Shown piece by piece: positions 13,434 to 36,315 of a DNA stretch of 64,000 nucleotides. A model generated the notes under the pieces. That model saw only the letters and a program-made list of their open reading frames with translations, made no database searches and had not been told where the DNA came from. Each line of letters starts with the position of its first letter. Within the stretch, counting starts at the first letter, position 1. Both the position numbers and the translations under genes were made by a program. Source of the DNA: Ectothiorhodospiraceae bacterium BW-2 (lineage in GTDB: Bacteria; Pseudomonadota; Gammaproteobacteria; Thiohalomonadales; Thiohalomonadaceae); NCBI GenBank assembly GCA_008375315.1, contig CP032507.1, positions 1,054,001-1,118,000 of the forward strand. Reading direction: 5' to 3'.

Positions 13434-13618
13434 AAAGAACCCTGCTCGAACGGAAGCTCCGCATGGCGGGTTGCTATCTTAAGCCGGAAGGTGCCGCGCA
13501 TTCGTTGTGGATCAATCCCGACAATGCCAAAGTCGAGGCCGTGCCTCGGCATACGGAAATCAAAGAACCTCTCGCGAAAAAAATTCTGAAAACCTTGGGA
13601 GCAAAAAACAGTTCTTGA
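13430..13618 (+). CDS. hicA: HicA-family toxin, 3' end replaced by a mobile element
   Basis: 62 residues of the YcfA/HicA double-stranded RNA-binding fold; family members cleave mRNA. Visible are KRTLLERKLRMAGCYL, the conserved histidine in GAAHSLWINP, and the VPRHTEIKEPLAKKILKTLG C-terminal half. The last codons (about 13602-13618, residues KNSS and the stop) lie inside the 329-bp element. If the element is removed, the frame reads on as LGADETR and ends at a TGA overlapping the gmd start codon. Toxin activity is plausible because all core residues remain. Confidence 0.75.
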   Translation: MKRTLLERKLRMAGCYLKPEGAAHSLWINPDNAKVEAVPRHTEIKEPLAKKILKTLGAKNSS

Positions 13619-13930
13619 TTTTTTATTTATTTGTCATTAGAATTTTCCACCGTAGATAGGTTATCTACAAGCGCGAAAGTTTTGCGTGCCATGGTTAGAG
13701 TCGAAGTCGAATCGCAAGGTTGTTCTCTGTTCAGGATGAACGTCGAGGCAATTTTTATGGCGCAAGCTGGGTTTCGATGGCTGAAACTGCCCATGTTGCC
13801 GGTGTTGACCGGCCATCCGGTTGGGACTGCTCAACCAGGACTCCAGTTGCTCGCCCGCAAGGGTGTTATCAACGGAGAGCGAATTACCAAAAACCGCCAT
13901 GAGCAACTTTGCTTAGGTTTTTAGGAACAG
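13602..13930 (+). mobile_element. 329-bp non-autonomous element, copy 1 (shares right end with the tnpB element)
   Basis: The same sequence occurs at 35987-36315 in inverse orientation, and I saw no difference between the copies. About the last 113 bp match the right end of the tnpB element at 14004-15463 with a few substitutions. Left flank GAG, right end GGAACAG; because AG is present at both ends the exact cut cannot be placed within two bases. A subterminal hairpin GTAGATA-GGT-TATCTAC lies at 13652-13668. It encodes no transposase. A 97-codon open frame with a TTG start runs through it but looks fortuitous. It inserted at the hicA/gmd junction. Confidence 0.8.
13819..13930 (+). ncRNA. Omega-RNA-like right-end RNA without its own tnpB
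   Basis: Pairings seen: GGTTG (13819-13823) with CAACC (13832-13836); GTTGCTC (13846-13852) with GAGCAAC (13901-13907), enclosing CCC-GCAA-GGG (13854-13863). TnpB omega-RNAs come from this place, the element right end, with the guide taken from the flank. The guide here would start at 13931 (CGGACGAAAC). Transcription is not shown. Confidence 0.5.
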
Positions 13931-13943
13931 CGGACGAAACAAG

Positions 13944-14003
13944 ATGAAAAAAGCCCTCATCACCGGCCAGGACGGCAGCTATCTGGCCGAACTGCTGCTG
14001 GAG
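13944..14003 (+). pseudogene. gmd: gmd 5' fragment (GDP-mannose 4,6-dehydratase)
   Basis: Twenty codons reading MKKALITGQDGSYLAELLLE, the start of GDP-mannose 4,6-dehydratase. Compared with the usual MKKALITGVTGQDGSYLAELL there is a nine-base in-frame loss of VTG, probably between CACCGGC repeats. This removes part of the glycine-rich NAD loop. The reading is then broken by the tnpB element; the gene resumes at 15464 with KGYEVH. The enzyme would make the precursor of GDP-fucose and related deoxysugars; this copy cannot. Confidence 0.85.
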
Positions 14004-14056
14004 ATCAAGGAGGATTTTCCCGATAGTCCCATTCAGTTACCAAAGGATGTGTGCGA

Positions 14057-15457
14057 ATGAAGGTCACGCGAGTTTTGAACGCAAAACGCCCGAACAAGGG
14101 CAAAGTCGCCGCATTGCGCGAGCAGGCGCGTCGGCTTGGCCAAGTGCGTACCGAGGTCTGGCAGAGGTTTGGGTCGGTCGGTGGCGTGGGTCTCTCGGAT
14201 CGCAAGATTCGCGATGGCTGGCTGAAGGAAGGTCGCGCCTTTCCGGTTTCCGCCAACGCTTGGAAAGAGACCCTACGAGATGCGAAGGGCAACATCACCG
14301 CCTGCATGGAAGCGGCCAAGGTTAAAGTTCGCCAATCTGTCTTTCGTCACACCCGGGACGAAGCCGAGCAAAAACGCCTGTTCACTGCCCTCAAGCGCAA
14401 CGAATGGACGGGCGATTCTTATCTGCGCCGGCTCATGCGTAAGCACTGGCATCATGGCCATAACCATACCCATAACCAGATTATTGTCCGTTCAGATAAT
14501 TACACTACCTTCCTCCTGGGTGGGTGCGTCTGGATCAAGATCCCCGGCCTTGTTAAAGGTCAGCGTATCGCCATTTTGCTCAATACCACGATCACGCCAA
14601 CTGGCACTCTGCGCGTCATTATCAAAGACGATGACCGTATTGAGGTTCACACCACCGTTAATGTCGAAACCAAACAGGATTGCGGCAAGCGCACCCTCGG
14701 CATTGATAAAGGCTACTCCGAAGTGCTTGTGGATTCAGACGGCGATCACCACGGCCAGGAGCTCGGTCAAGTACTGACCGAACAATCCGATAAGCTAAAA
14801 GCCAAATATCAGCGCCGATCAAAACTGCGAGCGCTCGCCAACACGACCCGTAACCCGCATAAACGCGAGCACATTTATCGCTTTAACCTTGGGCGCAAAA
14901 AGCTAAACCGGCAGATGGACAAAACCCATGCAAGCATCCGTGATGTGGTGTTTCAGTCGGTTCATAAGGTTGTTGATAAAGCCGCCGTGATTGCGGCGGA
15001 AGAGCTCACCGCCCCGATGTCGGGCAAGTCCTTCGGCAAGAACGTCAATCGTCGGCTGGCAAGCTGGACGAAAGGCGTCATTGCCGAAGCACTTGATAGT
15101 GTTTCAAGCCGCAGAGGTTCTGCGGTCGTTCTGGTCAATCCTGCCTACACATCGCAAATTGATTCCCGCAACGGATGCCTACTCGGCAAACGCCAGGGGG
15201 ATCGGTTTTACTGTTTCGACGGGGTTGTGTTGCAGGCAGACCAGAACGCTGCGCGAAACGTGCTGGCACGGTTGTCCGATCTTGACATCGATCGGTTCAT
15301 GCCGTACCGACAGGTGAAGACGATCTTGCAAGCGCGGACTGAGCGCCTCCGGTTGGGACTGCTCAACCAGGACTCCAGTTGCTCGCCCGTACGGGTGTTA
15401 TCAACGGAGAGCGAATTACCGAAAAACTGCCATGAGCAACTTTGCTTAGGTTTTTAG
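14057..15457 (+). CDS. tnpB: TnpB RNA-guided nuclease (OrfB family) with degenerate zinc ribbon
   Basis: About 466 residues. The RuvC-like triad is intact: D217 in LGIDKG, E315 in IAAEEL, D395 in QADQNAARN. The zinc ribbon normally found between the last two motifs (two CxxC pairs) is reduced to isolated cysteines in NGCLLG and FYCFDG, so zinc binding looks lost. TnpB is a transposon-encoded, omega-RNA-guided DNA endonuclease and the ancestor of Cas12. The start at ATG 14057 has AAAGGAT upstream; a GTG two codons earlier is open. The final 35 or so codons overlap the right end/omega-RNA, and the C-terminus HEQLCLGF is shared with the open frame in the small elements. Confidence 0.9.
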   Translation: MKVTRVLNAKRPNKGKVAALREQARRLGQVRTEVWQRFGSVGGVGLSDRKIRDGWLKEGRAFPVSANAWKETLRDAKGNITACMEAAKVKVRQSVFRHTRDEAEQKRLFTALKRNEWTGDSYLRRLMRKHWHHGHNHTHNQIIVRSDNYTTFLLGGCVWIKIPGLVKGQRIAILLNTTITPTGTLRVIIKDDDRIEVHTTVNVETKQDCGKRTLGIDKGYSEVLVDSDGDHHGQELGQVLTEQSDKLKAKYQRRSKLRALANTTRNPHKREHIYRFNLGRKKLNRQMDKTHASIRDVVFQSVHKVVDKAAVIAAEELTAPMSGKSFGKNVNRRLASWTKGVIAEALDSVSSRRGSAVVLVNPAYTSQIDSRNGCLLGKRQGDRFYCFDGVVLQADQNAARNVLARLSDLDIDRFMPYRQVKTILQARTERLRLGLLNQDSSCSPVRVLSTESELPKNCHEQLCLGF

Positions 15458-34830: not shown

Positions 34831-35450
34831 GAGCCCTCGCAGCCAAAATCGTCGGTTGGTGTTCATTTCGAAATCTAGTCAACGCTGATTAACAACAGTC
34901 AGAATAACATCAATCACAAACTGCACCACACTCTCATCGAGTCCCGGATACATTGGCAGGGTCAAACATCTTGAGTAGTAAATTTCAGAGTTATAAAATC
35001 TTTCAAATGGGTAGTTGTATAGCTGCTTGTAATAGGGCTGATGATAAATGGGGATATAGTGAACTTGGCAATGAATTTTAAACGATTTTAATATATCGAA
35101 AACCAAATTTCTCGTTTTTGCACCCTCAGTAAATTGTAGGGTGTATAGGTGATGACACACGCTCTGATTAGACGGGTTTGGGGGCAAAATCAACTTATCG
35201 GAAGTTGAGAATGCTCGATGATAGGCATCAAAAATAGCCTCTCGTCTCTCTTTAAAACTATCCAATTTTTTTAGTTGAGATAGACCTAAAGCACACTGAA
35301 AGTCAGTCATGCGGCAGTTAAAGCTCAACTCATCCATCTCATAGTACCAAGGACCATCATGTTCATAGAGAAAGTCGGGACGCCTCGATACACCGTGACT
35401 GCGCATTCTCCTGACTCTAGCGGCAAGCTCATCGCTATTTGTTAAAACAA

Positions 35451-35459
35451 CCCCCCCCC
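35451..35459 (-). repeat. Poly-G (G9) tract causing a frameshift in the aminotransferase
   Basis: On the coding strand G5-A-G9 follows the ACC AC of the catalytic-lysine region. G9 yields GEGGGCFNK and a stop; one G fewer restores GEGGVVLTNS. A slippage-prone contingency tract, an old mutation or a sequencing error are all possible. Confidence 0.7.
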
Positions 35460-35986
35460 TCCCCCGTGGTGATAGTTTTAACGGGATGAAACGAGAAGAT
35501 AGCCGCATCGGTATGGGCACAGCTACCGCACTGATAAGCGATACCGCTATCATCTTTGTAAGTCGTTCCTATGGAGTGAGCCGCATCCTCAATCACATAA
35601 AAACCATATTTTTTTGATAACGCATAAATGGTTGGTAAATCGGCAGCAACGCCGGCAAAATCGACCGGAATAACCACCTTAGGAATCGCCACCGTCTCAC
35701 AATAGAGCTCTAGTTTTTCTGGGGATAGAGAGAGAGAGGCCATATCGATATCGATAAAGTCGCTCCTGCCGCCACAAAACTCAACACAATTGGCCGAAGA
35801 TAGAAAGGTGATAGGCGAGGTAAGCCCCAAATCCCCAGTTTCTATCTTCAAGCCTAAGCAGGCTAAGTGGAGTGCGGTCGTTCCATTAGCGCAGACAATC
35901 GCGTGTTTCGCGCCGGTTAAGTCGGCCAGCGCCTGTTCAAACTGTCGTGCCATATCTCCTGTGGTAATAAAAGGGGATTGTAGTAC

Positions 35987-36098
35987 CTGTTCCTAAAAAC
36001 CTAAGCAAAGTTGCTCATGGCGGTTTTTGGTAATTCGCTCTCCGTTGATAACACCCTTGCGGGCGAGCAACTGGAGTCCTGGTTGAGCAGTCCCAACC
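35987..36098 (-). ncRNA. Omega-RNA-like right-end RNA, copy 2
   Basis: Equivalent of 13819-13930, with the same GGTTG/CAACC hairpin, GTTGCTC/GAGCAAC helix and GCAA tetraloop. Its guide would begin at 35986 and read GTACTACAATCC, which is the pseC-like sequence restored on excision. Confidence 0.5.
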
Positions 36099-36315
36099 GG
36101 ATGGCCGGTCAACACCGGCAACATGGGCAGTTTCAGCCATCGAAACCCAGCTTGCGCCATAAAAATTGCCTCGACGTTCATCCTGAACAGAGAACAACCT
36201 TGCGATTCGACTTCGACTCTAACCATGGCACGCAAAACTTTCGCGCTTGTAGATAACCTATCTACGGTGGAAAATTCTAATGACAAATAAATAAAAAATC
36301 AAGAACTGTTTTTTG
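35987..36315 (-). mobile_element. 329-bp non-autonomous element, copy 2, inside pseC-like gene
   Basis: Same length and, as far as I could compare, same sequence as 13602-13930. Removing it rejoins GTAAAAGAG|GTACTACAA, restoring DAVKE-VLQSPF in frame, so this is a precise insertion with no target duplication beyond the ambiguous AG. It lies with its right end (omega-RNA-like) toward the aminotransferase body. Confidence 0.82.

Follow-up and report, generated by a model that had tools for sequence, protein, structure and literature searches.

Can the nuclease of a bacterial transposon be addressed to new sites by elements that carry no nuclease gene of their own? The question is raised by two short elements, here called satellites, at 13602–13930 (forward strand) and 35987–36315 (reverse strand) of the 64,000-bp stretch analysed (the window; positions 1,054,001–1,118,000 of the single-contig, 4.07-Mb genome of Ectothiorhodospiraceae bacterium BW-2), which also holds a tnpB element at 14004–15463. 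As proposed from the sequence alone, the two satellites are equal in length (329 bp) and 100% identical to each other, and their last 116 bp share 96.6% identity with the right end of the tnpB element, a likeness for which chance is excluded. The best explanation of the whole, which we regard as probably correct, is that the satellites are guide-only, non-autonomous IS607 elements that are retained via the resident TnpB.

A search of the whole genome with a covariance model of the right end (R1) gave 24 strong matches, comprising 15 full satellites, seven intact tnpB elements and two decayed tnpB remnants, as well as three weak matches. The satellites are at least 99% identical, dispersed, and present on both strands; the seven intact tnpB genes are likewise at least 99% identical. 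Five of the tnpB copies (L025–L027, L029, and L030) sit in 2.09-kb elements with tnpA upstream, and the TnpA encoded by these full copies combines an N-terminal MerR-type helix-turn-helix with a serine Resolvase domain (Pfam), which identifies the parent transposon as IS607 and not IS200/IS605. Membership of IS200/IS605 was considered and rejected, as the full copies encode this resolvase-type TnpA and no Y1 tyrosine TnpA; all eight Y1 TnpA matches in the genome are outside the full copies, one of them (at 968435) close to a decayed right end at 968294. tnpA is missing from the satellites and from the tnpB copy in the window. After RGAG, the full copies begin with CAATTAACAGTTGCTTGATTT and the satellites with CAAAAAACAGTTCTTGATTT, and a Halochromatium tnpB element has a left end of the satellite-like form. 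The satellites therefore own both ends of the autonomous element and, judged by sequence, are non-autonomous IS607 elements.

The tnpB copy in the window has as its left end an internal site of the full copy, AG/ATCAAGG (the stroke marks the junction). The same tnpB-only form occurs at two unrelated loci, 14004–15463 and the decayed copy L034 (right end near G000 2,945,368), in both cases after GGAG; TnpA may use this secondary left end. The RuvC residues D217, E315, and D395 are invariant across the alignment of TnpB homologs, and their retention led us to reject the possibility that the protein is a TldR, a nuclease-dead TnpB regulator. Over the entire alignment the zinc-finger motif is cut down to two cysteines (TSQ-D-SRxGC...C). 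One Thiorhodospira sibirica locus (L189, G057:C4:718522-719919) has an open tnpB frame with GVNKGYSE in place of GVDKGYSE, converting the first RuvC aspartate to asparagine, and is possibly a nuclease-dead tnpB copy.

Across five taxa, 60 of 61 satellites are situated directly after RGAG (46 GGAG and 14 AGAG; the exception is GAAG), as are all eight full elements with a readable left end. This insertion site is close to the target-adjacent motif (TAM) of other IS607 TnpBs, 5'-AGGAG, measured in 18 of 22 strains tested (PMC11061315); the tnpB element has both a structured RNA at its right end and an insertion site that corresponds to the TAM of its TnpB group. Element and flank have AG in common at both junctions, as recombination at a matching dinucleotide would predict, and in ISXfa1 the fixed flanking nucleotide belongs to the scaffold of the right-end RNA (reRNA, or omega-RNA) (PMC10711439). 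Deleting the satellite in silico gave an open frame over the junction, with a Pfam domain spanning it, at four loci, which encode a response regulator, a histone-deacetylase-family protein, a methyltransferase, and the DegT/DnrJ/EryC1 aminotransferase interrupted by the window copy at 35987 (PF01041 spans the joined flanks). The tnpB element in the window interrupts a GDP-mannose dehydratase gene equally seamlessly. The elements insert precisely and duplicate no target sequence, and an empty site consists of the TAM plus the sequence that would serve as guide. The predicted guides of the 60 satellites compared (60/60) are all different, and for the TAM plus guide of the two window satellites no other genomic target with up to three mismatches was found besides the satellites' own right junctions.

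The last ~114 nt of the satellite fold into a TnpB reRNA scaffold that is supported by compensatory changes among 34 distinct right ends, which come from about ten taxa. Helix A (GGTTG/CAACC), helix B (CTCC-a-GTTG/CAAC-GGAG), and helix D (terminal CCuAAAAA/UUUUUaGG) are together paired in 97.2% of cells and contain six pairs altered on both sides, a number matched by none of 500 shuffles, with slid versions pairing in at most 60%; helix B is 100% paired, with compensatory changes present. Conservation of the stems by compensatory change had been named beforehand as one of the points on which the sequence-only reading could fail, and the stems do covary. Its GGTTG/CAACC hairpin is real, as is its CCC-loop-GGG apical hairpin with variable loop, which varies freely (CCCGCAAGGG, CCCTTCGGGG, CCCGGTCAATCCCGGG, and others). 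Its third helix, GTTGCTC/GAGCAAC, is not upheld: 84.5% of cells pair, with two-sided changes no better than in slid controls, and its GTTG pairs instead with CAAC in helix B, such that the two helices compete. No Rfam covariance model, including RAGATH-18, matched 13590–13960 up to E = 10.

Two further kinds of right end were observed. A second subtype (L075, L077, L084, L085, L101, L102, and L118) keeps helices A and B and has a terminal arm CCGAAT...ATTCGG, itself with compensatory variants (CCAAAT/ATTTGG). In a Thiorhodovibrio metagenome-assembled genome, the right-end scaffolds L112 and L121 have neither tnpB nor a satellite interior in front of them, and are perhaps other kinds of guide-only element.

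Between the left end and the scaffold lies the satellite interior, a non-coding stretch of 165 bp that forms a conserved, structured RNA domain with no Rfam match. Its mean pairwise divergence is 5.7–9.7%, compared with 21% for positions 21–48 and 3.8% for the scaffold core. With the copies from G143 and G258 included, eight interior pairs are altered on both sides (0 of 500 shuffles match), for example UAGAUA/UAUCUA to UGGAUA/UAUCCA and GCCGGU/ACCGGC to GCUGGC/GCCAGC; the signal is clear only with these further copies, the first test having comprised 11 sequences, and the alignment was fitted to the model and so leans in favor. Because the interior is both conserved and structured, the satellite RNA comprises two domains and is not a scaffold plus filler. 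Private substitutions in the T. sibirica copies avoid both RNA domains (eight in the 48 left-end positions versus seven in the remaining 281 positions; Fisher p = 0.0003). A promoter scan identified a candidate promoter, TTGATT-17-TAGAAT, at 13615–13643 in the left end of satellite 1. A protein-coding satellite was considered and rejected; the 97-amino-acid frame has no Pfam match, and stops break it in a T. sibirica copy.

Outside the host, the 329-bp element is present in T. sibirica at about 40 copies (a lower bound, because only 40 of 74 candidates were scored), in Rhabdochromatium marinum (four copies), in Halochromatium roseum (one copy), and, unannotated, on the Allochromatium tepidum plasmid pAt1 (one copy); fragmentation of the draft genome G056 limits copy counts. 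A model of the interior (R2) recovered seven divergent relatives in G143 and two in G258 (another family). No satellite was found in 19 other genomes of the host's own order, which suggests horizontal movement. Phage carriage of satellites gave no match, the three IMG/VR matches being tnpB elements and not satellites. Every satellite-bearing genome searched (G000, G056, G057, G061, G143, and G258, with A. tepidum outside that search) encodes a TnpB relative, the best in G143 being only 43% identical. Elements with transposon ends and scaffold but no nuclease gene share the genome with an intact nuclease encoded at another locus. Scaffolds of satellites and tnpB elements were compared in three genomes and agree best within one genome: identity is 96.5% in G000, 89% in G258 (versus 68–72% to other satellites), and 74% in G143, where the tnpB element is 57–66% identical to sequences of other genomes. 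Some T. sibirica satellites have the apical loops of local tnpB copies. Such likeness is expected if the local TnpB must read the satellite RNA, or if local exchange of right ends takes place; both readings need contact with the resident element.

Based on these observations, we propose that the resident IS607 TnpA would move the 329-bp elements in trans, by joining a circular element, at its AG core, to the AG within an RGAG target. Each satellite would encode one structured RNA of ~280 nt, consisting of a satellite-specific 5' domain followed by a 3' TnpB reRNA scaffold ending in ...ACAG. Transcription would start at the left end or in the host gene and continue into the flank, the first 15–20 nt of which would be the guide. 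The resident TnpB would bind this RNA and cut copies of the locus without the satellite (RGAG plus guide), and repair from an occupied sister would put the satellite back; the satellite would thus gain retention, and TnpB another address. The same logic of retention has been described for TnpB elements (PMC11870625). The sequence-only reading, which named no transposon family and did not mention the interior RNA domain, is supported in part. It had anticipated guide-RNA-only elements, which agrees with mobile elements that lack tnpB, a covarying scaffold, TAM adjacency, distinct guides, and an intact TnpB in the genome; it had assumed a single TnpB, in place of which seven intact copies exist beside the 15 full satellites.

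Several points weigh against this proposal. Outside the RuvC region the TnpB is remote from every solved TnpB (phmmer of the protein against the PDB gave no match, and a TnpB profile matched Cas12f with E = 2e-5 over the RuvC region), and the AlphaFold model is poor (predicted local distance difference test score of 54) and was not used, so that the intact triad is the basis of the predicted activity. In other taxa the candidate promoter has a poorly kept −10 box, the left-end excess in T. sibirica rests on 15 substitutions, and local exchange of right ends alone could make the scaffolds alike.

The satellites might instead be plain IS607 miniature inverted-repeat transposable elements (MITEs), in which the right end is kept as DNA for TnpA and any RNA is incidental. 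They share ends and target site with the autonomous element, and their copy number is explicable by mobility alone; we nevertheless consider this explanation unlikely. IS1535 TnpA contacts only bp 10–28 of the right end (PMC6188088); the conserved right end of the 329-bp element, at 114 bp, is about four times that contact length and begins at the scaffold boundary, so that TnpA binding alone hardly accounts for it. Compensatory changes in both scaffold and interior also argue against plain MITEs, as does a scaffold that tracks the resident TnpB in three genomes. An improbable alternative is that the satellites are TnpB decoys, the RNA of which occupies TnpB and dampens the cutting by the full transposon, as a parasite or a self-limiting brake and not a helper. 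The scaffold common to satellites and tnpB elements would suit a decoy, as would the excess of satellites over intact tnpB (15 versus seven here; ~40 versus a handful in T. sibirica); however, 60 of 61 sites preserve both the TAM and the register of the guide, which is expected if the guide matters, although target choice by TnpA alone could have the same effect. We give very little credence to an interior that acts independently as a regulatory or processing RNA, with the scaffold a passenger serving mobility: the interior is structured and about as conserved as the scaffold, but a scaffold-model match (weak in two cases) lies behind all seven interior-bearing G143/G258 loci read. The features in the window are listed in Table 1.

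Table 1. Satellite and tnpB element features in the window (window coordinates).
Feature	Position	Strand	Basis
Satellite copy 1	13602..13930	+	329 bp; neither tnpA nor tnpB
TAM/target motif GGAG, left of satellite 1; final AG presumed to be the IS607 core dinucleotide, recurring at the right end	13598..13601	+	read from sequence
Left end of satellite 1, IS607-type	13602..13649	+	alignment with left ends of full tnpA-tnpB copies
Interior structured RNA domain, satellite 1 (takes in first hairpin of scaffold)	13650..13836	+	model R2; two-sided pair changes; also in G143 and G258
reRNA (omega-RNA) scaffold, satellite 1	13817..13930	+	model R1, 128 bits; covariation
Predicted guide, satellite 1 (flanking DNA)	13931..13946	+	offset from scaffold end; IS607 TnpB guide rule (PMC10711439)
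TAM GGAG, left of tnpB element	14000..14003	+	read from sequence
tnpB-only IS607 derivative, inside GDP-mannose 4,6-dehydratase gene (start 13944)	14004..15463	+	joined flanks match PF16363 over junction
tnpB, 466 aa, RuvC triad D217-E315-D395 intact	14057..15457	+	PF07282 above cut-off; homolog alignment
reRNA scaffold of tnpB element, overlapping 3' end of tnpB	15349..15463	+	model R1, 132.7 bits
Predicted guide of tnpB element	15464..15479	+	flank position
Predicted guide, satellite 2	35971..35986	-	flank position
Satellite copy 2, inside DegT/DnrJ/EryC1 aminotransferase gene	35987..36315	-	identical to copy 1
reRNA scaffold, satellite 2	35987..36100	-	model R1
Interior RNA domain, satellite 2	36081..36267	-	model R2
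TAM AGAG, satellite 2	36316..36319	-	read from sequence

Adjacent to satellite 1, a hicB/hicA-like toxin–antitoxin pair (13301–13620, identified by reading only) ends at the satellite, from which the final codons and stop of the hicA-like frame derive.

The closest parallel is provided by the Fanzor ghosts of Spizellomyces punctatus, 134 loci with transposon ends and an omega-RNA but no nuclease gene, the RNAs of which work with SpuFz1 (PMC10432273). The satellites resemble them in the absence of the nuclease gene, in a right-end omega-RNA near that of the full loci, in being more numerous than the nuclease copies, and in a conserved internal region. The ghosts differ in being eukaryotic, with Fanzor1, inverted repeats, and no known transposase, whereas the 329-bp satellites involve a bacterial TnpB, an IS607 serine recombinase, and an RGAG TAM. 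Standalone omega-RNAs are also known for IscB, as cited in PMC9581776; they share a guide RNA encoded apart from its effector and used in trans (as the satellite RNA would be), and differ in belonging to the IscB/Cas9 lineage, in the RNA lying at the opposite side of the gene, and in unrelated sequence. By analogy, the satellites would work like both systems and are members of neither. IS607 TnpBs with RAGATH-18 or another right-end RNA have in common with the satellites the IS607 transposon, a right-end guide RNA, an AGGAG TAM, and a fixed dinucleotide within the scaffold; 36% of RAGATH-18 RNAs are not beside tnpB, such that solo copies may exist, although standalone copies are not discussed there (PMC11061315, PMC10711439). 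The satellites differ in having no RAGATH-18 match, and here the scaffold overlaps the tnpB frame. MITEs of the IS607 family and of other bacterial elements are similarly short, non-coding, and mobilized in trans. MITEs of the usual kind are not known to specify a guide RNA that serves their partner's nuclease. In the open literature searched we found no report of a TnpB counterpart of standalone guide elements, which is no proof of absence, subscription papers being mostly outside the search.

Standalone guide loci are already known for IscB and fungal Fanzor; the putative TnpB equivalent here is a conserved, multi-genus family in which TAM, guide, and RNA structure are in register. The satellites are best read as bacterial counterparts of the Fanzor ghost elements, which would be expressed as trans-acting guide RNAs and direct cleavage by the resident TnpB. 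Their relatives in other purple sulfur bacteria suggest that the family is of long standing and that its members are guide-RNA-only parasites, which use borrowed TnpB to hold their place. We see about an even chance that this is a widespread, horizontally moving guide-RNA-only family with its own two-domain RNA, the scaffold of which adapts to the TnpB of each host, with dozens of members programming one nuclease pool in trans as a multi-locus RNA-guided retention network. The family makes it testable whether satellites without a nuclease exploit an RNA-guided nuclease to persist, for instance in T. sibirica ATCC 700588, with ~40 guides versus a handful of TnpB genes, and the satellite-specific RNA domain may reveal which features, in addition to the scaffold, a trans-acting guide requires.

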